From Candidatus Methanophagaceae archaeon GoMg1 (GTDB taxonomy: Archaea; Halobacteriota; Syntropharchaeia; Alkanophagales; Methanospirareceae): a stretch of 45,421 bases of DNA. The stretch is taken from the NCBI GenBank assembly GCA_013180605.1, contig QBUL01000183.1:1-45421 (forward strand), given 5' to 3'. Below the pieces are notes generated by a model. The model searched no databases. It worked only from the letters and a program-made list of their open reading frames with translations, and was not told where the DNA came from. Shown piece by piece: positions 3,519 to 44,728 of the stretch; position 1 is the stretch's first letter, and each line of letters opens with the position of its first letter. The translations under genes were made by a program, and so were the position numbers.

Positions 3519-3905
3519 TTATATCGCAGTCACACTTTTGCTTATCTTTTCGATCCAGTCTAGTGTAGTTTGATTCTTCTCTTCTTTTATAAACTTCACT
3601 GTCTCATTGTTTAAATCTATGCCGATTCTGTATATTTTTCCTCCTATTGAAGGGAATAATTCTACGTAAGTTTCGTTCCATATTATTCCAGATGGTACAG
3701 AAACCGGTTTTCCGCCAGCCAATTCCTGCACTCTCTCATCTTTTAAAGCTATTTCTCTCGCCTTTTGTCCCCAATCTATTCTTTCTACTTCAGGCGTATT
3801 GTTAGTCTCTTGTGTGTGATTTAGCAGCTTTACTCCAAGCATGCTTGTGCCAATTATACCAATAATAATCAATATCGCTATGAAATAGAAAGTTCTGGTA
3901 CTCAT
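3519..3905 (-). CDS. Small single-TM anchored protein, PepSY-like C-terminal region possible
   Basis: N-terminal TM TFYFIAILIIIGIIGTSMLGV then a soluble domain; codes on the strand opposite its neighbours. Confidence 0.55.
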   Translation of the reverse strand: MSTRTFYFIAILIIIGIIGTSMLGVKLLNHTQETNNTPEVERIDWGQKAREIALKDERVQELAGGKPVSVPSGIIWNETYVELFPSIGGKIYRIGIDLNNETVKFIKEEKNQTTLDWIEKISKSVTAI

Positions 3906-3938
3906 TTTTCACTTCTTTAAACTGATAGTGTGAGCGGA

Positions 3939-4010
3939 TATATAAACCTTTGCTTTTTGTTCGGAAAATCCGAACGTTTTCGATAGTTTTATCAGGGGTT
4001 TGAACGATAC
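3939..4010 (+). promoter_or_regulatory. Duplicated promoter/operator block, copy 2
   Basis: 71/72 identity to 2374-2445; palindrome GTTCGGAAAATCCGAAC at 3959-3975. Confidence 0.8.
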
Positions 4011-4050
4011 TATCCTTAAGTGAGCGGCGATAAGCGGCGCTATATAAATG

Positions 4051-4070
4051 CCTAAAAATTTTAGGAGGTG
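4051..4070 (+). promoter_or_regulatory. Perfect inverted repeat overlapping a Shine-Dalgarno-like sequence
   Basis: CCTAAAAATTTTAGG (4051-4065) overlaps AGGAGGTG (4063-4070); related imperfect copy CCCAAAAAATTTAGGGGGTG upstream of 2502. Confidence 0.5.
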
Positions 4071-4083
4071 AAATAAAAAAGAG

Positions 4084-5285
4084 ATGAAAATGAAACAAAT
4101 GTATAAAAATTTAAAAGCTATTGTCCCAGTTGTCCTTGTATCCGTTTTGGTACTGCTGGGGGCGTTTGCAGTTGTGAATGCTCAAGGACAAGACGACGGT
4201 ACAAACCCTGCGAAAGGACTATTGTTTGATGCACAAGTATATGCATCAAATATGAATGTTAGTGTTGACGAAGCTATCCTCCGATTCCAACTTCAAGACA
4301 TTGCAGGGGACTTGGATGCGGAACTGACCACAAATGAGACAGAAACCTTTGCTGGACTTTGGATTGAGCACACTCCGGAATTCCGCGTTGTTGTGCAGTT
4401 TACTCGCGATGGTGAGGAGACAATGAAACCATATCTGAAAAAGTACCCAGAGTTTGCCGACATTGTTGAAGTGCGCAACACTGCAAAAGTGTCTTTAGCT
4501 GACCTCCAAAGGGCTCAAGCCATGGCTATATCTTCTGCCCGTGCTTTAGATATACCTGTAGAGTCAGACATCAATGTATTTAATAACAGTGTTGAGTTGT
4601 ATATGACTAAATCTGATAGGAGCCGATTCGATGACGCTTTGCAAAGAAATGAGATACAATTACCTGATAAAGTTAGAGTGATTACGGTTGAAGCTGAAGC
4701 AATGGGAATACTCGAAGCCGACATTTATGGTGGTCTCCCATTGAGTACCTGCACAAGTGGTTTTTCGGTAAAGGAAGGTATCACTAAAGGCATCACAACA
4801 GCCGGTCACTGCTCAAATACCAAGTCATACAACGGTAACAATCTACCATTTCAGAGCGAAAACTGGGCGGGTAGCTATGATATTCAGTGGCACACTGCAC
4901 CAGGGTACACTGTGACGAATAAAATACGATGGTGGAGTGATGTACCACACGTGACATCACCGCGACGAAAAGTCGAAGTAGCCAAGCAATTGGTAATTAT
5001 GTTTGCAAGTATGGTAAGACCAGCCATTATACATGTGGTTACATCAGTTCTAAGAACTTCAAGCCAACCGTTCCAAACGCTGAAGCGACTTATATTCGGG
5101 TTGACAACACAGCCGGCTATGATGATCTTTCTTCTGGTGGAGATAGCGGCGGTCCCTGGTTCTTAAGTAACACTGCGTATGGAACACATCACGGCGCACC
5201 TACTGCTGATCCAAATGATGCCGTCTATATGGCAGTCAACTATGTAGAGTCCGGACTTGGCGTCAGTGTGATGACATCCCCGTAA
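4084..5285 (+). pseudogene. Streptogrisin/alpha-lytic-type S1 serine protease preproprotein, frameshifted near 4942
   Basis: Signal peptide, long prodomain, TAGHC and SYDIQW in frame 1; after one frame change DITATKSRSSQAIGNYVCKYGKTSHYTCGYISS...SSGGDSGGPWF...MTSP* continues to the TAA at 5283-5285. One inserted base in 'gatgtacc' (gat ggt acc) restores DGTTRDITATK. Confidence 0.85.
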
Positions 5286-5326
5286 TTTAGTAGAAAAAAC
5301 AAGAGAAACAATAATTAAAACACAGT

Positions 5327-5355
5327 GAGAGGTATATTCTCTCCTTTTTATTTTT
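5327..5355 (+). terminator. Hairpin plus T-tract terminator-like element
   Basis: GAGAGgtataTTCTCTC followed by T-rich sequence just 3' of the protease. Confidence 0.5.
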
Positions 5356-5384
5356 TATTATTAAAATAGTATTAAAAATTCAAA

Positions 5385-5831
5385 ATGAATCTAAAATTAA
5401 AAGTATTGATGATTGAAATAATTATGTTGTCAATATTGGTTAGTGGATGCGTTGAAAAACCACCGCAAAATGGTGACTCTGTCAATACTTCATCGTCTGC
5501 TCCTTTTTTTCCAGTGCAAAAGGATCCAAACCCTACCACTTACATGGATGCCCTATTAGTTGGTGAATTAGTACTAGAAGATGGTTGTCTCCGCGTGGAT
5601 GATCATTTGCTTGTATGGCCACATGGTTTTTCAGTAAGCATTGAAGATGGAGTAATCCTGATCATTGATGACAACGGTCAACCTATAATGCGTGTTGGAG
5701 ATAAAATCAAACTTGGCGGAGGTGGCGGTGAAATGCCCCATGAACATATAGCAAAATATTCTGCAGAGTTGCCGAGTGATCGTTGTTCAGGACCTTACTG
5801 GATTGTCGGAGAGGTGATAACAAGTGATTAA
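5385..5831 (+). CDS. Putative lipoprotein of unknown function
   Basis: N-terminal hydrophobic segment with lipobox LVSGC. Confidence 0.65.
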   Translation: MNLKLKVLMIEIIMLSILVSGCVEKPPQNGDSVNTSSSAPFFPVQKDPNPTTYMDALLVGELVLEDGCLRVDDHLLVWPHGFSVSIEDGVILIIDDNGQPIMRVGDKIKLGGGGGEMPHEHIAKYSAELPSDRCSGPYWIVGEVITSD

Positions 5832-36236: not shown

Positions 36237-36380
36237 TTCTATTACCTCTTCCTCTGTCAGCCCATACAAACCATACACCAGCCGGTCAATCTGCACATCA
36301 ACAATATTTATCTACATCTCATAAAGCTCTTTATCGCGGTCCATTCTCGCATCGTGATAATTCTTTTGGAGTTCGAGCAT
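36237..36380 (-). repeat. RM-tail repeat copy A (3' coding fragment of a type IIG/Eco57I-like R-M protein)
   Basis: Reverse strand: MDRDKELYEM*INIVDVQIDRLVYGLYGLTEEEVIEKNL*; contains an internal TAG. Confidence 0.75.
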
Positions 36381-36407
36381 TCGTATGCATAACGTCTTCA
36401 ACAACCT

Positions 36408-37322
36408 TCAAACTCTATATATTGCCAGTGGAATAATACCAATTGAAGGATATGACACAGAAAATTTCAGTCCAGTAGTTACCATAAGTTTTAGTATATA
36501 TTCCATAATATTCTCCATATCAAGCATATTATATCCCTCCTTTAGTTGTGGTTTTTCTACATTAATCCCCTTTTCGTCAGGGATCGTAGATATTTGCCCA
36601 ACAATAGTCCACTTTTGATTTGGTTCTGTACCGTATTGAAATAATAATGTTTCCCGGTCATATTGCAGGTAGTTTTTATTAAGTCTGCCTAAAAGATAGG
36701 GCGCAGAATCAGTGCCTACCGGATATATTTTTAAGCTAATGATACCTTTGTACATTGTCTCCATGAATTTTGATATTGGATTTATAGTACTATCCCAATC
36801 CCGAGCACCCATCTCTTTTAGCGTTTCTCTTTTTTTCTGTTTCCTTTTATCTTTGGTTAAACTCATCGAAGTCAATTCAGCAACCGTCTCCGGAAGTCCT
36901 TTAACCATTTTGAATGCATTGTCTAAATATTCATAGTCGAATATTTTAACATTTGCTGTGATTTTAATAAATTCGGACTCTTTTAAGCCCTTTCTTACAA
37001 TACCCTCAACCCAATTTTTTTCATCAAACTTTTCGTTCAATACACTAAGTTTTTTCAAATCATTCAGTCTATCTTCAAATAATACGTAAATATAATGTTG
37101 TAGGCTTTTTGTTTCTGTTTTTTCTTGGCGAAACAGTGAACCACCTTCAAGTCCGCCGCTTATCAAAAAAGGCATACCCCCCTTAATTTTTCCTTTAATA
37201 TCTTGTTCCTTTCCATTTTTTGAATCTATGGTCTCAGGAATGCCCTCGAAAAGTTGCGAAGTAAAAGATCGAACACGATCTATATCGAGGTATATAAAAT
37301 CTTTCAAATCCATCGTTATCAC
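36408..37322 (-). CDS. DUF6414-family-like protein
   Basis: MDLKDFIYLDIDRVRSFTSQLFEGIPETI N-terminus. Confidence 0.55.
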   Translation of the reverse strand: MITMDLKDFIYLDIDRVRSFTSQLFEGIPETIDSKNGKEQDIKGKIKGGMPFLISGGLEGGSLFRQEKTETKSLQHYIYVLFEDRLNDLKKLSVLNEKFDEKNWVEGIVRKGLKESEFIKITANVKIFDYEYLDNAFKMVKGLPETVAELTSMSLTKDKRKQKKRETLKEMGARDWDSTINPISKFMETMYKGIISLKIYPVGTDSAPYLLGRLNKNYLQYDRETLLFQYGTEPNQKWTIVGQISTIPDEKGINVEKPQLKEGYNMLDMENIMEYILKLMVTTGLKFSVSYPSIGIIPLAIYRV

Positions 37323-37364
37323 CTTTTAGTTAGATTGTTGTATCTATATTTAAAGATTCCTTTT

Positions 37365-37563
37365 TCCCACATTCACCTCTTCCTCCGTCAGCCCATAAAA
37401 ATCATAAACCCGCCTATCAATCTGTGTATTAACGATTTTTATCTGTCGTTCATAAAGCTCTTTATCGCGGTCCATATTCGCATCGTAGTATTTCTTCTGC
37501 AGTTCGAGCATGTTATCTACCAAAGCCACAAGTTTATCGTGCTGCCTTTTTCTGTTGAATTGG
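37365..37563 (-). repeat. RM-tail repeat copy B
   Basis: Reverse strand: QHDKLVALVDNMLELQKKYYDANMDRDKELYERQIKIVNTQIDRRVYDFYGLTEEEVNVGKRNL*. Confidence 0.8.
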
Positions 37564-37589
37564 AGAAGTCTATGTTTATAACCCCTGAT

Positions 37590-38774
37590 TTATTTATTGT
37601 ACATCTCATCTATTAATTCTTTTCGCTGGTAGTCGTTATCCACCCCAAAAGACCATAAAAATTCGTTGAACAAGTCCTTGACTATCTCATCAAAACGTTC
37701 TGATAACTCACGCACAGTTACTTTTCTCTCAAGTGTTATAGAATCATCAAAGTTTGAGCTACCTAAAGACTGCTCAATATCATCAGACCACTTTATTGAA
37801 CTGGGATTTGTTAAAAACCATCCTCTTGTTCCTTCCAAAGACAAACTAATCAATATTAAGCCCCGATACCCTACTCCTTTATAAAAATTTAGAGAGAATC
37901 TGAGCACACATTCCACCAGCTCCGAAACTTTAGATAAATACACATTTTTTTCGTTGTGACTTTCCCATAAGCTTTGTTTGCTGAAAATTAGACCGAATAG
38001 ATTTATTTCGGTGTGATTTAGAACCGATTCGTAAACAGAATCACAGATAATGCACTCATGAGCTGTTTTATACGGACCTGTTAGCATAAAATTACAATTA
38101 GAATATGAGACTTTAGATTTATCTGCTATGTCACTTAATTTTTCGAGAACAACCAACGGCGCGTGAGGAAATACAGGAATTACAGAAACACTTTGGAATG
38201 CGTTAAAATTCTTTTTTGTTGGTTGATTATTAAATCGTTCTTCTGCTCTCCTCAAAAGTCTTTCTCGATTTTCAACCGCTTTTTTTCGTCTATTCATCAA
38301 CCATTCAATTTCTTCAAAGGGTGCTCGTTGAGGTTCGCTTTGGCTATCCACACGCACATAGATTCCGGTTGTACGTTCCACAGTGTGCGGTGTTTCATCG
38401 CTCTCTTGCACCCTGATGACCACTACTGCTTTTTCAAGGTTATCACCAAATCTACAAACCTTAGTTTCTGGAAAAACTGGAGGATAAATATTTTTCAATG
38501 CGATTGAAGTTACTTTTTCATTTAAGCCCTTTACATAATCTCTTCCAGCTATTGGTAATTTTGGTTTTCTGTCCTTTTCACCTACGCCCACCAGAATAAT
38601 GCCACCATGAGTGTTGGCAAAAGCAGAGATTTCTTTTGCTATCTGTTTCTTCTCATCCTTACTAGAAAAATCCTTTTTATATTCTACTCTTCTATTTTCT
38701 TCAATCTGTTCGTCACAAAATGCTTTCACATCTTCAAATTCAATCTCGTTTATTGGTTTAACAAATATACTCAT
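37590..38774 (-). CDS. AlbA_2/Schlafen-type putative DNA-binding domain protein
   Basis: EENRRVEYKKDFSSKDEKKQIAKEISAFANTHGGIILVGVGE. Confidence 0.8.
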   Translation of the reverse strand: MSIFVKPINEIEFEDVKAFCDEQIEENRRVEYKKDFSSKDEKKQIAKEISAFANTHGGIILVGVGEKDRKPKLPIAGRDYVKGLNEKVTSIALKNIYPPVFPETKVCRFGDNLEKAVVVIRVQESDETPHTVERTTGIYVRVDSQSEPQRAPFEEIEWLMNRRKKAVENRERLLRRAEERFNNQPTKKNFNAFQSVSVIPVFPHAPLVVLEKLSDIADKSKVSYSNCNFMLTGPYKTAHECIICDSVYESVLNHTEINLFGLIFSKQSLWESHNEKNVYLSKVSELVECVLRFSLNFYKGVGYRGLILISLSLEGTRGWFLTNPSSIKWSDDIEQSLGSSNFDDSITLERKVTVRELSERFDEIVKDLFNEFLWSFGVDNDYQRKELIDEMYNK

Positions 38775-38776
38775 TT

Positions 38777-38830
38777 TTCTTCCACCACCTTCATCTTCAC
38801 CTCTTCCGAGAGTACATACAAATTATAAGC
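38777..38830 (-). repeat. RM-tail repeat copy C (partial)
   Basis: Reverse strand: AYNLYVLSEEVKMKVVEEK*; its TGA overlaps the ATG of the 38774 gene (ATGA). Confidence 0.65.
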
Positions 38831-38965
38831 AGACCATTCCCTTAAAAAGTTTATGTTTACAATCCATACAATACGACCAAATAGTAACTTCCTCAGGGAT
38901 TGAGCAATGTAAAAAAAAAAAATCGAAAAGCATTTATACTCTGAAACTTAGGTTTAGATTGGAAA

Positions 38966-39106
38966 ATGGAATATAAGTGTGGTGAAAAACCCGGAAAAGG
39001 CAGATACATTTGTACCAATTGTGGAGAGGATTTGCATCTCGATGACGATACAGACGCATTACCGCCATGTCGCAGTTGCAACAAATGTGTATTCACGAAG
39101 GTATAA
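38966..39106 (+). CDS. 46-aa zinc-ribbon protein
   Basis: MEYKCGEKPGKGRYICTNCGEDLHLDDDTDALPPCRSCNKCVFTKV*; not in the supplied ORF track. Confidence 0.7.
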   Translation: MEYKCGEKPGKGRYICTNCGEDLHLDDDTDALPPCRSCNKCVFTKV

Positions 39107-39164
39107 GCATAATGCCATAATGTAGGAGGTGTGATCATAGATACTGTGTTGGCATAACATAGCT

Positions 39165-39387
39165 TATGCTCTCTCTATTATTTTTATCTCCCCCTCCGTC
39201 AGCCCATACAAATCATAAACCAGCCGGTCAATCTGCGTATCAACAATCTTTATCTGCCGTTCGTAAAGCTCTTTATCCCGCTCCATTCTCGCCTCCTGAT
39301 GTTTCTTCTGCAGTTCGAGCATGCTATCCACCAAAGCTACGAGTTTATCGTGCTGCGCCTTTTCTGTAGGGTTAATAGCATTAATTC
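39165..39387 (-). repeat. RM-tail repeat copy D (longest)
   Basis: Reverse strand: INAINPTEKAQHDKLVALVDSMLELQKKHQEARMERDKELYERQIKIVDTQIDRLVYDLYGLTEGEIKIIERA*. Confidence 0.85.
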
Positions 39388-41228
39388 CCCCATGTTATCA
39401 TGTCTTTTTCATATTCACTTTTTATCTGATCAAGTTTACTAAAACTATTTATCACATCGTTTAACGCAATTTCAACATCAGAATCTTTTTTCTTAGAGAT
39501 ATCCATCAGTCTTCTAAAAGAAATCAATTGTTTGTTAATTTCTACATAGATTTGTTTATTTTCTTCATTTAAATCCTTTTCAGCGATTTTTTTAATTTTA
39601 TCGAATACTTTGATAATAAAAAGTACTGAATCTTTATAGATTGCATCCTCTCCAATTTTGCCGATCGAACCCCGTCCTAATGTTCCCAAATCATTAAGAA
39701 TAAAACTATCAAGTGATTTTTTCTGTGCTAATTGAATTAAAATATCTGAAAATGTAATTAAGGGGATATTAGAATATCTAGCTTTTTTCTCTAATGCTTT
39801 ATCCATCGCGAAAAAATGAGGTCTAACGGTTCCTTTTCTATACAATCCCTCCTTTACACATTTTAAAATTAATTCTTTAACATAATAATAACACCATCGA
39901 ATGATCAAGGTTTTTTGTCGGTCACCCAAATTCATATCTATTACAACTGATGCAATATTCTCCAATACAAACAAACCAGTATTAACAACTTCGCTCTTCT
40001 GTAGCTCAATAGCAGTTTCTGTGAGGTTTGAAACCATTCGGATGTAGCTATCACTTACCTCTTGCCATTGTAAATCTTTATTGGTATCATGTTGTACCTT
40101 TTTATCATCCATTGCAGATAGTAACCAGATTTCATCTTCAAGCGGTATATTTTTTTCAAGATGCTCTTTCATAATTCGCTCAATGGTATGCAATCCACGC
40201 GGACTGACATTAATTAAATCACTTTTCATCATTTCTTCGTTAATCTCAATCAATGCATCATTTAACTCAATTACTACATACCAAGGTAGTTTGTTTTCAG
40301 CACAAAAAGAATGAATCCCTTCAATTGCTTCTAGTATTGCATGCAACATCACTTCCTGACGGGACTTTATAGCTTGACTTGCAGTATTTTTTATAATACT
40401 CAGAAAGACATTTATTGTTTCTCGTGATTTATCATAGTTCTCAACATTTTTCAGTACCGTAAGCATTTTTTTTGTGGATTCGGCAAGTATAAAGCGTGGT
40501 ATTATTTGATCATCGTCCTTCAATGATCGGATCGCGACCTCTCTTAAAATATAAATAGGATTTTTCTCGATAGGAGGAGTGACCACATCATAATCACCAT
40601 CACCATAATCAAGAACCGGAGTGAGCATTAAATGATTCTGAAGACGGAATAAAACAATTTCTTCGTCATCGATTCTTTCGACTAGGTCTTCAATTCTTTT
40701 CTTGGATTGAGTAGAACTAATAATTTTCTGCGAATATGGAAATAGGATAAGAAGAGAACCCACAAACAAAAGAAGTGAAAAATATATAAGATCAACGTCT
40801 CGCGAGCTCAATGGATCTGATAAAGATACAAGGGTTAAAACAGATACGATAATCGTAAAAATATATATAAAAAATAACTCTTTCAAATGCTTATCCTGAA
40901 AGAAACTTTTAAAAGCATATGTGGAATATATTTTTCTTAAAATTTCAAAAGCAACAAGCATGATGGCAATAATAATCCCTAATATTGCAGCAAGAGAGCC
41001 GATTATCGTAGAAAGAACGATAATTCCCGCCGAAACATTTCTTATTTCTAAAACATTGGGTAAGAAAGTGGGTAATTGTGGTGTATATATCCATATTGCC
41101 AAAAAGACAGCTGTAATTCCTACTATTTCGTATGTTACTCTCTCTTTTAAAATCTTTTGTAGCATTGTTTTAGATGTCCTAAATGCTCTTTTACATTTGT
41201 AGTATCTCGAATTACTTTTACTCCTCAT
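39381..41228 (-). CDS. Multi-TM membrane protein with large cytoplasmic region (DUF2254-like)
   Basis: Four N-terminal TM segments, soluble helical C-terminal region. Confidence 0.5.
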   Translation of the reverse strand: MRSKSNSRYYKCKRAFRTSKTMLQKILKERVTYEIVGITAVFLAIWIYTPQLPTFLPNVLEIRNVSAGIIVLSTIIGSLAAILGIIIAIMLVAFEILRKIYSTYAFKSFFQDKHLKELFFIYIFTIIVSVLTLVSLSDPLSSRDVDLIYFSLLLFVGSLLILFPYSQKIISSTQSKKRIEDLVERIDDEEIVLFRLQNHLMLTPVLDYGDGDYDVVTPPIEKNPIYILREVAIRSLKDDDQIIPRFILAESTKKMLTVLKNVENYDKSRETINVFLSIIKNTASQAIKSRQEVMLHAILEAIEGIHSFCAENKLPWYVVIELNDALIEINEEMMKSDLINVSPRGLHTIERIMKEHLEKNIPLEDEIWLLSAMDDKKVQHDTNKDLQWQEVSDSYIRMVSNLTETAIELQKSEVVNTGLFVLENIASVVIDMNLGDRQKTLIIRWCYYYVKELILKCVKEGLYRKGTVRPHFFAMDKALEKKARYSNIPLITFSDILIQLAQKKSLDSFILNDLGTLGRGSIGKIGEDAIYKDSVLFIIKVFDKIKKIAEKDLNEENKQIYVEINKQLISFRRLMDISKKKDSDVEIALNDVINSFSKLDQIKSEYEKDMITWGN

Positions 41229-41410
41229 CCCTGCCCACTATCCTCCACCACCTTCATCTCCTCCTCCGTCAGCCCGTACAACTCATAAACCTGCCTGTCA
41301 ATCTGCGTATCAACAATCCTTATCTGTCGTTCATAAAGTTCTTTATCGCGCTCCTTTTTCCTAACTTCTTCCGGACATTCCTCCATCATCTCATCTATGA
41401 TCCTCTTATT
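41226..41410 (-). repeat. RM-tail repeat copy E
   Basis: Reverse strand: KEENKRIIDEMMEECPEEVRKKERDKELYERQIRIVDTQIDRQVYELYGLTEEEMKVVEDSGQG*; TGA overlaps the ATG of the 41228 gene. Confidence 0.85.
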
Positions 41411-41418
41411 CTCCTCTT

Positions 41419-42711
41419 TTATATTAAGCCAAACATCTTTAAAATCGCTAAGAGGACCATCACGAAGGTAAGCCCAAATATCCCTTTTGTTAACCTTTTG
41501 ACATCTTTTTGAAGTCCAACATTGGCGTATGCAGTTACTGAATCCACAAGATCGTTTGTGTATCTCAGTCCTATACTTTGTTTTTCATCTAATTCCCTGA
41601 GCTTTTTGTCACATCTCTCTATTTGATACTCAGCACTCAAATACACCTCTTTGAAGAAGGAAGAAACAGTTTGAGTGTCTTTCCATTTCACGTGCGCTAC
41701 ATCATTAAGATGATTTAATTCTTTCTGCTCCTGCAAGCGTGGCTTATGTTCTTCTAACAGGTCTCCTGATGCGTCTAATTCATCCTTCACTTGTGACGAG
41801 AACTCAAAGAATTCCATTTTTTCATCTATCAAATTGTTATATTGATTCATCAATTCGTTAAGGCTGCTCGGATTCTGTGTCAGCACTTCTATACTCTCAC
41901 TTCTTTTGAATTCACGTAGTTGCGACCTAGATTTGTTGATTTTGTTTTCCCACTCATTTAATTGTTTAATTCTGAAGAAGGAACAATGAAAAGGTTTAAT
42001 CAAAGCTAGCAAAGTATCCAAACCGTCAAGCATGATTGGAGCTATTAAATCTGGAGCATTTTTAAATCCAATTATTGTAAATTCTGTGTAACTGCTAAAA
42101 ACTACCTGTGGAGAGACCAGAGACATACCGGTCCAAGACATTTGGTTTGGGATAAATTTAATTGCATTTAGGGGGTAGGAATTTTTATCTAACCAATCTT
42201 CCAGTTTCTCATCGGCAACAATAGGATGTGCCCATGACTCAATCCCTTTGAATCTAAGCACTTCATCGAGATGTGCAATCCATAGAATGATACCTTTGTG
42301 CCACTCACTCGTATCTGTTGAAAACATCCCGATGAGGTGGGGTGTTATGTAATGCCCAATCTCCTCTTGCGCCTTCTCTAAAAAGTTCTGCCCATCACTT
42401 GGCGTTTTTTTATGTAAATTTTCAATAACCTCTTCTTTTAATTCCCCATAACAAGTTACATCATAAATATGGCGATGCTGTTGAATTACATATATATTTA
42501 TCGACTCAAAGCAATCGGGAATTGGAAATTTGGGATTGATAATACCCCCATATTTTTCTATAACATATGCAGTGCCGCCACCTAATCTTTGAGGTGCCAT
42601 TTTTGGGGGTGATTTTCCTTCGAATAATATTTTCAGTTTATCATCCAAACTTGGTTTCTGCTTCGAATCAACGAAATCTACCAAAGCAATACCAAGGCTT
42701 TTTATTTTCAT
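41419..42711 (-). CDS. Unknown protein with coiled-coil-like region and C-terminal TM helix
   Basis: 430 aa; KDVKRLTKGIFGLTFVMVLLAILKMFGLI at the C-terminus; no family recognised. Confidence 0.6.
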   Translation of the reverse strand: MKIKSLGIALVDFVDSKQKPSLDDKLKILFEGKSPPKMAPQRLGGGTAYVIEKYGGIINPKFPIPDCFESINIYVIQQHRHIYDVTCYGELKEEVIENLHKKTPSDGQNFLEKAQEEIGHYITPHLIGMFSTDTSEWHKGIILWIAHLDEVLRFKGIESWAHPIVADEKLEDWLDKNSYPLNAIKFIPNQMSWTGMSLVSPQVVFSSYTEFTIIGFKNAPDLIAPIMLDGLDTLLALIKPFHCSFFRIKQLNEWENKINKSRSQLREFKRSESIEVLTQNPSSLNELMNQYNNLIDEKMEFFEFSSQVKDELDASGDLLEEHKPRLQEQKELNHLNDVAHVKWKDTQTVSSFFKEVYLSAEYQIERCDKKLRELDEKQSIGLRYTNDLVDSVTAYANVGLQKDVKRLTKGIFGLTFVMVLLAILKMFGLI

Positions 42712-42845
42712 CTCTCCATTCCTTCAATAACTTTTATTTCTTCATCGCTCAGCCAGTACAAATCATAAACCAGCCTGTCAATCTGCGCATCAACAATCTT
42801 TATCTGCCGTTCATAAAGCTCTTTATCGCGGTCCATTCTCGCCCG
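42709..42845 (-). repeat. RM-tail repeat copy F
   Basis: Reverse strand: RARMDRDKELYERQIKIVDAQIDRLVYDLYWLSDEEIKVIEGMER*; TGA overlaps the ATG of the 42711 gene. Confidence 0.85.
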
Positions 42846-42848
42846 TGA

Positions 42849-43415
42849 TTATTTCCCTTTTATTCCACTCAGCACTCTATTATAAACCTTTTCGGATATC
42901 CAAACCTTTTTGTTTCTCAAATCATCCAAAGACTTTTTCAAATCTTTTATTAAGCCGTTTTCATACGCCTCTGCTAAAATCCCAACAGTTCCAATAACCT
43001 CTAATCCTCGAGACTTTGCTATATCCCTTGCAATAGATTCATCTATTAAGACCAACTCGGCATTTAACTCCAATGCCAGGATTATTGCCTCTGCTTCTCC
43101 CTTTTCCAACTCTATGGTCAATGATTCCACAGCAAGCGTATTCTTAACCTCTTTAGTTATGAACCAATCGGATTCTTTCACTTCGGTGGAACCGGGTTTA
43201 CCTTCACCTTTTACAACAACTTGCTCATATACTTCATTTGGTATGTAAATTTGCATAAACTGCTTGAGTAAATCTAACTTGCCAATTCTTGCTAAAGCAA
43301 TTAGTGGTCCCGCATTTGAAACTATAATCATATTATCTTTGCTTAATTCGTCGCAAGGTTTTGACATCCTCTTCCAAGTCTTCCACGGTATAATGCAAGG
43401 GAATTCTCCTCTCAC
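42849..43415 (-). CDS. PIN-domain (DUF3368-like) toxin
   Basis: MIIVSNAGPLIALARIGKLDLLKQFMQIYIPNEVYEQVV...LEKGEAEAIILALELNAELVLIDESIARDIAKSRGLEVIGTVGIL; real start probably within the first 30 codons. Confidence 0.85.
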   Translation of the reverse strand: MRGEFPCIIPWKTWKRMSKPCDELSKDNMIIVSNAGPLIALARIGKLDLLKQFMQIYIPNEVYEQVVVKGEGKPGSTEVKESDWFITKEVKNTLAVESLTIELEKGEAEAIILALELNAELVLIDESIARDIAKSRGLEVIGTVGILAEAYENGLIKDLKKSLDDLRNKKVWISEKVYNRVLSGIKGK

Positions 43416-43596
43416 CCAGCAAATCCATCATCTCATTCCTTGAAACTTCCGCTATTTCCGATGCCTTGCCTATGGAAACCAACCCCTCCCTAAACAGCTC
43501 TATTGCTATCGCACGCTTTAAAAACGCATCTAATTCGCTTTCTCTGACTTTACAAATCGTGATTATTTCGTGAGGCAGTTTCAATTTCGTTTCCAT
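43333..43596 (-). CDS. UPF0175-family antitoxin
   Basis: AIAIELFREGLVSIGKASEIAEVSRNEMMDLLGERRIPLHY. Confidence 0.8.
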   Translation of the reverse strand: METKLKLPHEIITICKVRESELDAFLKRAIAIELFREGLVSIGKASEIAEVSRNEMMDLLGERRIPLHYTVEDLEEDVKTLRRIKQR

Positions 43597-43693
43597 TTTA
43601 TCATACTCATAAACCTATTCTTCCTTTGAATATAAAAACTTTTCTATCCTATTTTTTCTCTCCAATAGTTTTGTAAGTAATAGGAGTAAAAAA

Positions 43694-43940
43694 ATGGAGA
43701 ACCGGTTTACTGCCGTATTTCAAAAGACGGACAAATGGTGGATAGCCTTTGTTGAGGAGTTGCCAGGTGCAAATACGCAAGGAGAAACAATTGATGAAGC
43801 TCGTGAAAATCTCAAGGAGGCTGTTGAACTGATACTGAAATCCAGTGAAAGGCAAGACATCCACAGTGCCTCGACACGTCGAAATTGACGATGCTCTGGC
43901 AAAGAAAATTTGTAAGGATTTAGGGATTCCAAAAGTTTGA
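43694..43940 (+). pseudogene. hicB/hicA fusion remnant
   Basis: HicB N-terminus MENRFTAVFQKTDKWWIAFVEELPGANTQGETIDEARENLKEAVELIL then, in another frame, HicA-like C-terminus GKTSTVPRHVEIDDALAKKICKDLGIPKV*. Confidence 0.65.
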
Positions 43941-43960
43941 GGATTCTTCCAAAAACATTT

Positions 43961-44224
43961 TTAATTTAGTTCCTTTTTTCCTTCGCATAAATAGATGGTC
44001 TTTTCGCGTTGATTTGACATCCCAAATACATCTGCTCGTAAGCTGGTTTTCCCTCGCTTCAGAGATAACTCACTTCCAGCATATTCTGAAAGACAATTCT
44101 TTTGCGTCTTCAAAAATGTTTCCACTGCGGGATACAGGTCTTTCTCGTGCATCTTCTCTAAATCAACCATCTCCTTCTTTTTGCCTCCTTTTTTCTCCTT
44201 TTCCTCATTGATGCTGTGAATCAC
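43961..44224 (-). pseudogene. Truncated N-terminal fragment of a predicted nuclease-like family
   Basis: MHEKDLYPAVETFLKTQKNCLSEYAGSELSLKRGKTSLRADVFGMSNQREKTIYLCEGKKELN; paralogous to 44537-44728. Confidence 0.5.
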
Positions 44225-44294
44225 ACCTTAAATCTCATCAGCTTTCCTTAACACTTCTTCGATTAGTTTATAGTCCAAATAGTATCATAAACGA

Positions 44295-44522
44295 TCATAT
44301 TTTGCCAAGTTCCTCTTGTAAATCCTCCACGGTGATGTCTGTGTAGCTGACCTCCCTTTTTCCCAATTCGTAGAGGAAATCCCAGAGAGTTAACTGTGCA
44401 GTATCCGAAGCTTGTTTCAATGTCATCTTCCCCTCTCTGTAAAGCTCTGCAGCTAAAGCTATCCTCGCCTCGTCTTCATTAACATCTCCAACCAATGGAA
44501 CTTCCAGTATTTTTACCGCCAT
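44295..44522 (-). CDS. UPF0175-family antitoxin
   Basis: RIALAAELYREGKMTLKQASDTAQLTLWDFLYELGKREVSYTD; no PIN partner recognised downstream. Confidence 0.75.
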   Translation of the reverse strand: MAVKILEVPLVGDVNEDEARIALAAELYREGKMTLKQASDTAQLTLWDFLYELGKREVSYTDITVEDLQEELGKI

Positions 44523-44536
44523 GTCTATCTATAAAT

Positions 44537-44728
44537 CTATTCTTCCTTTGAATATAAAAACTTTCTTTTTGACATATCGAACACATCTGCTCTGAGGCTG
44601 TTTTTTCCTCTCTTCAGTGATAATTTCGTGCCAACGTATTCGGCAATGCAATTCTTTTGGAGCTTCAAGAAATTTTCCGCTGCGGGATACAGTTCCTTTT
44701 CGTGCATTATAATTATCACATCTTTCAA
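44537..44728 (-). pseudogene. Second truncated fragment of the same nuclease-like family
   Basis: MHEKELYPAAENFLKLQKNCIAEYVGTKLSLKRGKNSLRADVFDMS then divergence. Confidence 0.5.

Follow-up and report, generated by a model that had tools for sequence, protein, structure and literature searches.

Accessory-gene cassettes punctuated by copies of a type IIG restriction–modification gene end in ANME-1 archaea, probably reassorted by homologous recombination

The DNA analyzed here (the window) is a single contig of 45,421 bases (C157). At approximately 36.2–42.9 kb its minus strand carries five strong copies of one sequence of approximately 190 nt, identified by a repeat search and a DNA profile (nhmmer E = 3e-34 to 5e-61), which are interleaved with accessory genes and whose translation is the C-terminus of a type IIG restriction–modification (R-M) enzyme. 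We refer to these copies as tails and to the accessory genes as cargo. In the order in which the minus strand is read, the features are:

43333 to 43596, minus strand: ORF, cargo, UPF0175-like antitoxin partner of the PIN protein (family name from the earlier note only)
42849 to 43415, minus strand: cargo, PIN/DUF3368 toxin-like protein (PF11848; PADLOC PDC-S70)
42726 to 42850, minus strand: orphan R-M tail A, 5′-truncated at model position 71 (nhmmer 3.4e-34), with a gene–tail junction identical to that of L057
41419 to 42711, minus strand: cargo, 430-aa coiled-coil protein with a C-terminal hydrophobic segment
41244 to 41360, minus strand: orphan R-M tail B, starting at model position 82 (nhmmer 7e-34)
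39381 to 41228, minus strand: cargo, DUF2254-like membrane protein, 615 aa (PF10011)
39179 to 39370, minus strand: orphan R-M tail D, almost full length (nhmmer 5e-61)
38966 to 39106, plus strand: cargo, zinc-ribbon protein on the strand opposite to the array (PF07295)
38781 to 38828, minus strand: tail C, a 48-nt remnant of the tail 3′ end before the AlbA_2 gene (local alignment; comparison with L126)
37590 to 38774, minus strand: cargo, Schlafen AlbA_2 protein, 394 aa (PF04326, 7e-22)
37367 to 37554, minus strand: orphan R-M tail E, almost full length (nhmmer 9e-54)
36408 to 37322, minus strand: cargo, DUF6414 protein, 304 aa (PF19952, 7e-29)
36242 to 36381, minus strand: orphan R-M tail F, from model position 49, with one in-frame TAG (nhmmer 1.8e-39)

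An earlier note, made from the sequence alone, had counted six same-strand tail copies. Five are clear, all on the minus strand, but the sixth (tail C) preserves only the last 48 nt of the tail; this remnant has a local alignment score of 46 against a shuffle maximum of 28, and a complete tail occupies its exact position, before the same AlbA_2 gene, in a Methanosarcinaceae locus (L126). Pfam bore out the DUF3368/PIN, DUF2254, SLFN_AlbA_2, DUF6414, and zinc-ribbon identities that the note had assigned, and the coiled-coil/TM protein that it had called unknown matches no Pfam family. The zinc-ribbon gene is on the plus strand as described; it is, however, not a separate unit but part of the AlbA_2 cassette, lying within a block common to L087, L076, and L084. 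The cassette before tail A consists of the PIN/DUF3368 gene and the UPF0175-like ORF, the latter inside the block shared with L057, and tail F, whose gene–tail junction is as in L082, is the end of the array. The claim that tail 3′ ends consistently abut the next gene holds only in part, as they range from 4 nt inside that gene to a few hundred nt before it. Our search of the window for an R-M body found none, consistent with the note's reading that no R-M catalytic domain is present, and 1.8 kb of contig remains on the upstream side of the shared PIN cassette block. Upstream of the array (43609–44707), a gene fragment (HEKDLYPAVE...LRADVFG) occurs twice in diverged form, together with a 34-nt repeat (97%); the fragments are of the same family as 258–272 aa cassette genes in L078.

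The assignment of the tails to a type IIG enzyme is supported by full-length relatives in the same genome that carry HSDR_N, N6_Mtase/Eco57I, MmeI_Mtase, and TaqI_C domains and match the PADLOC model REase_MTase_IIG (9e-192). A 958-aa R-M protein with nuclease, methyltransferase, and TaqI_C specificity domains is encoded on contig C103, where its gene precedes a HEPN/ApeA-like gene with a tail and then a pair of genes with a further tail; contig C60 of this genome contains two more orphan tails. These domains (HSDR_N, N6_Mtase/Eco57I/MmeI_Mtase, and TaqI_C) and this PADLOC match are those of the R-M protein of L019 (3142–6018). The head gene meets the type IIG criterion of fused nuclease, N6-methyltransferase, and target-recognition domains, and no close sequence relative of the enzyme was found in the PDB. 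Over 22 full-length ANME-1 R-M enzymes, amino acid identity is 86% in the N-terminal 560 residues, 25% in the specificity region, and 78% in the last 66 residues, which constitute the tail. Third-position identity at identical residues is 0.69 for the N-terminus, 0.43 for the specificity region, and 0.78 for the tail. Judged from these values, the tail DNA is more conserved than its protein conservation predicts, as would be expected of a frequently exchanged homology arm; we are cautious on this point, given that a DNA-level constraint would look similar. In L022 (contig C21, 1–5694) an N-terminal R-M part (5197–5694, plus strand) and a C-terminal R-M half (3826–5208, minus strand) are arranged head to head; either part of the type IIG gene is inverted, which might switch its specificity, or the assembly is broken where the contig ends. 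In L095 (3269–5406), L057 (4632–5837), and L067 (2795–5787; all three oriented so that tails read on the plus strand) the R-M gene is split into a methyltransferase ORF and a specificity/tail ORF, representing natural split enzymes or frameshifts.

Tail matches are present in 51 of 149 related genomes, many of which contain a full-length gene and then downstream orphan tails; most of the genomes examined are draft MAGs. Over 46 fetched loci, the DNA profile identified 37 R-M tails and 59 orphan tails. In ANME-1, which are methane-oxidizing archaea, the layout is a full-length IIG gene followed by (gene(s)–tail)n, found downstream only and on the same strand, with a tail as the last element. 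A downstream same-strand copy of the gene's own 3′ end accompanies 20 of 28 R-M genes versus 5 of 171 other genes at the same loci. Tail length ranges from 48 to approximately 225 nt (about 80–225 bp for the copy that ends a cassette), and the 5′ ends vary between cassette families, each cargo family having its own truncation point; the tails appear never to extend into the specificity domain. A search at E ≤ 1e-4 through the 191 kb of array DNA detected no remnant of an R-M body (best chance match 0.11); it does recover the R-M loci. Within one genus, and behind the same upstream genes, L019 carries an array and L062 has no orphan tail; their flanks and R-M N-termini are 92–95% identical, and the genes downstream differ in L062. 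In L080, L062, and L068, R-M genes without an immediate cassette have related minus-strand genes (402–550 aa) 37 nt downstream, possibly a shared array-free flank. Many assemblies made independently of one another, among them a single-cell genome (L136), contain such arrays. The possibility that intact R-M genes had been lost here only by misassembly is not upheld, as the same arrays and junctions recur in these assemblies and no R-M body fragment remains. We rejected misassembly as the origin of the arrays given the independent assemblies and a 4.74-Mb single contig (L218). We also rejected a viral carrier (a single viral contig has a full-length gene and no orphan tail) and a plasmid carrier (PLSDB has no match to the Chloroflexota tail).

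For every window cassette, another genus has a counterpart behind an R-M gene that matches it over the whole stretch between tails, or almost so, with homology ending there; this answers in the affirmative the earlier note's question of whether full-length R-M genes elsewhere are followed by the same accessory genes. The PIN cassette is 94% identical in DNA to that of L057 (93.8% between window 42720–43656 and L057 5825–6762, where the copy sits behind an R-M tail), and the cassette of the 430-aa protein is homologous from tail to tail to the first cassette behind the R-M gene in L092, L093, and L095 (89–90%; 89% for L092). The DUF2254 cassette (39188–41360) is 84% identical, tail to tail, to L085 4522–6656, directly after the R-M gene; the AlbA_2 cassette is 91% identical to a copy in L087 that follows the R-M gene; and the DUF6414 cassette is 91% identical, tail to tail, to L082 4592–5890, directly behind the R-M gene. 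The copies are clearly homologous on alignment, inter-genome homology stops in the tails, and a cassette directly behind the R-M gene in one genus lies deep in an array in another; hence neither unrelated copies nor a fixed gene order, either of which would have refuted the exchange between copies proposed at the outset, is found.

Between genera, gene–tail junctions agree almost to the nucleotide even where the neighbors differ. The DUF6414 joint agrees base for base between the window and L082, and closely matching joints are found for PIN (window and L057), DUF2254 (window and L085), HicA (L020, L078, L084, and L094), a Sir2-like gene (L077, L082, L086, and L089), and AbiE (L063, L081, L083, and L091), so that the junctions of DUF6414, HicBA, Sir2-like, DUF2254, PIN, and AbiE cargo are kept from one genus to another. 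On the upstream side of the cargo the joints agree as well, the candidate start offset from the tail stop being identical between window tail 0 and the R-M genes of L092 and L093, between window tail 3 and the L082 R-M gene, and between window tail 2 and the L076 R-M gene. The 43 segments that cassettes share between loci have 86 ends, of which 46 fall within a tail at both loci, compared with 7.4 on average and 16 at most in 2000 jittered sets; this test demonstrates bounding by tails and not the positions of crossovers, because homologous segments with tails at both ends tend to end there. The arrays thereby fulfill the integron criterion of interchangeable gene-plus-site units in a single orientation. 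Similar stretches of approximately 25 nt precede an equally truncated tail behind different cargo (DUF6414, a 362-aa protein, and an antisense 259-aa gene) in L082 (5728–5755), L077 (11680–11730), L080 (12686–12849; these three in oriented coordinates), and the window (36381–36408), as if cargo had been replaced to the left of an existing tail, which a crossover inside the tail alone does not explain.

Tail identity in ANME-1 is 0.839 within arrays and 0.835 between genomes, and the tail of the array's own R-M gene is the closest to an orphan in only 3 of 42 cases; by this measure the ANME-1 tails form one pool. At a syntenic locus, L092 and L093 are 87% identical in the N-terminal half of the R-M gene, unalignable in the specificity domain, and 95% identical from the tail through the array, a pattern that we interpret as marking an exchange. 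Tails that share only a left or only a right neighbor show a small position-dependent identity gradient in the predicted direction. The Mantel correlation between the R-M N-terminus and the tail (r = 0.35) does not mark the tail as a special site of recombination, given that it is not below that between the two halves of the N-terminus, which is also weak (r = 0.37).

The cargo is mostly defense or toxin–antitoxin in nature, although many of the 57 representative proteins surveyed with Pfam and PADLOC, a few of them from long inter-tail intervals, received no assignment from either. Matches include Gabija GajA/GajB, Mrr, GmrSD, TIR, Sir2 (PDC-S65), Schlafen AlbA_2, HicA/HicB, AbiEii, PemK, NucS, PIN (PDC-S70), and ApeA. 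In the AbiE cassettes the genes are antisense and the tail is still sense, indicating that tail orientation is independent of expression.

A genome scan and searches with each locus's own tail identified the R-M/tail layout also in Chloroflexota/Anaerolineales, Armatimonadetes, Acetothermia, Nitrospirae, Argoarchaeum, and Methanosarcinaceae; bacterial arrays use their own, different tail sequences. In L169 the R-M gene is followed by a RhuM gene and then a tail 89% identical to its own R-M tail, L156 has an ApeA gene flanked by tails, and in L218 a DUF2726 gene lies between the R-M gene and a tail. Restricting the count to the 19 loci outside ANME-1 that include about 5 kb on the upstream side, we find downstream same-strand copies at 9 (one of them, L145, a weak 35-nt match) and upstream or opposite-strand copies at none; no prevalence can be read from some other bacterial loci, which were fetched for showing orphans. 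ANME-1-like tails with 76–87% identity are present on contigs in L101, L106, L111, L113, and L134, whose MAGs are labeled Babeliaceae, Bacteriovorax, Stahlbacteria, and Thermoplasmatota; these contigs are probably misbinned, and otherwise reflect transfer.

Taken as sequence comparisons, these data require movement of tail-bounded units between arrays, and we consider it probable that the locus is a recombinase-free array whose cassettes are reshuffled through homologous recombination within the R-M tail, and that the window contains a headless stretch of it. We observe the architecture, its recurrence, junctions conserved to near base level, and mosaic reassortment bounded by tails, and we find neither R-M body remnants in the array DNA nor tyrosine recombinases on the array contigs of 12 genomes; the earlier proposal, in which a homologous boundary recurs and cassettes are arrayed on it, is in this sense supported, and the enzymatic mechanism remains inference. 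Arrays of this kind are common among ANME-1 archaea, and several bacterial groups have them too. Given that gene-plus-tail units are reshuffled in other genomes, the tail seems to serve as a site of exchange without a dedicated recombinase. Such arrays are headed by a type IIG R-M gene, and each cassette comprises one or a few accessory genes plus a copy of the conserved 3′ coding end of the R-M gene. Because the same tail block bounds every cassette on both sides, single or double crossovers between tails could insert, delete, or exchange cassettes, and because each tail crossover would rebuild an intact R-M 3′ end, the R-M gene would never be broken. The tail may double as the right-hand homology arm in exchange of the R-M specificity domain, which would explain why it is conserved in DNA and shared across the population, and homologous recombination between tails, which calls for no additional components to account for the movement of units, would also explain their constant orientation even with antisense (AbiE) cargo. 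We infer that the work is done by the host's general homologous recombination, including RecA/RadA dependence; no recombination event has been observed directly, exchange being shown by comparison of genomes. A weakness of homologous recombination as the explanation is that ANME-1 tails are approximately 84% identical, below the ideal for RecA/RadA. Homologous recombination alone also does not explain why 5′ tail ends differ between cassette families, so a separate founding step is needed; we infer that a new gene is first joined to a tail by an illegitimate event, for which insertion with long target duplication is a candidate.

An integron-like alternative, in which a recombinase encoded elsewhere recognizes tail DNA and inserts or excises cassettes site specifically, is improbable in our judgment. 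The fixed orientation, the repeated block 3′ of each cargo as with attC, and the high synonymous conservation of the tail would all fit it; however, array contigs in 12 genomes have no tyrosine recombinase match (PF00589, the only family sought), the tail length is far from constant, the tail consensus fold lacks attC-like structure and covariation (a compensatory double change in 1 of 33 pairs), and the bacterial arrays do not share a tail sequence. We give a similarly slim chance to stepwise insertion alone, in which each new gene enters directly behind the R-M gene and duplicates its 3′ end without later exchange. This would account for the variable tail length and the downstream-only position, and R-M insertions are reported to produce target duplications that are long and of variable length (PMC3031569, citing Nobusato et al. 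2000); in the sparse bacterial and other archaeal sample, moreover, the own R-M tail is the best match for the orphan in 19 of 22 cases, a count biased by the matches having been found with the own tail. In ANME-1, stepwise insertion without exchange is already disfavored, since gene–tail junctions recur across genera with different neighbors and the own R-M tail is not the closest; outside ANME-1, the RhuM cassettes of L169 and L226 have the same joint position, suggesting one gene–tail junction at two non-orthologous R-M genes. Nor does tail degeneracy increase steadily along arrays, and we rejected strictly ordered insertion with distance-dependent tail decay given that only some arrays are monotonic.

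A lesser chance still attaches to the tails being kept for a function of their own, as a leader coupling translation of the next gene or as a short peptide mimicking the C-terminus of the R-M enzyme as a subunit. Several tails have a stop that overlaps the next gene's start by 4 nt, and differences of orphan tails from the consensus are concentrated at third codon positions, yet 20 of 59 orphan tails contain an in-frame stop or frameshift, many are truncated, and the orientation is unchanged before antisense cargo; R-M alleles show nearly the same coding-like pattern, which is expected of copies renewed by recombination. That the tails are leftovers of tandem R-M genes, each with an accessory gene, is the least probable reading, since, even though each window cassette does occur directly behind some full-length R-M gene, tails appear always to stop short of the specificity domain and the absence of body remnants from the 191 kb rules out tandem decay.

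If recombination in the tails is the mechanism, cells could collect, reorder, and trade antiviral genes behind an R-M gene by ordinary homologous recombination, and one crossover could change both the restriction specificity and the defense gene expressed behind the R-M gene. This bears on the open question of how defense genes come to cluster in islands and are traded when no mobile element is obvious. The edges of each unit are marked by a short R-M piece, so cassettes can be separated by computer and exchange counted in populations, and cargo, several families of which have no known domain, can be discovered by position alone. The arrays of ANME-1, other archaea, and Chloroflexota suggest that a cassette platform requires no more than a hypervariable domain followed by a gene end whose DNA is conserved. 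On the broader hypothesis that archaea and bacteria generally use the type IIG 3′ end as a cassette site without an integrase, with exchange coupled to the R-M specificity domain, we consider the evidence evenly poised.

We found no earlier description of such R-M-tail arrays in the literature, considering open papers only. They resemble integron cassette arrays, including sedentary chromosomal integrons, in their small same-oriented units with a repeated site after each gene, their defense and toxin–antitoxin cargo, and the reassortment of units between genomes. Unlike in integrons, the repeat is the end of a protein-coding gene and the array is headed by a type IIG R-M gene, without a nearby integron integrase (PF00589, 12 genomes) or attC-like structure. 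In polymorphic-toxin arrays, orphan CdiA-CT/Rhs modules that have been displaced carry a stretch of the main gene that allows exchange by homologous recombination, and R-M-tail arrays similarly carry a main-gene stretch in each unit. The shared block of CdiA-CT/Rhs precedes the toxin end that is swapped into the main protein, whereas here the block is the 3′ end of the main gene, the cargo consists of separate ORFs, and the tails include no part of the specificity domain. Long variable direct duplications are reported to accompany R-M insertions (Nobusato et al. 2000, cited in PMC3031569) and are similar to the long, variable direct duplications at R-M genes found here, making such insertion a possible founding step; here, however, the R-M gene is the target, its end is duplicated recurrently, and the units are later reshuffled. 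Immigration control regions are described as hotspots of defense and R-M genes between fixed flanking genes (e.g., PMC10059834), and like these and other defense islands our arrays gather variable defense genes around an R-M gene; in contrast to such regions, a repeated R-M tail punctuates every unit.
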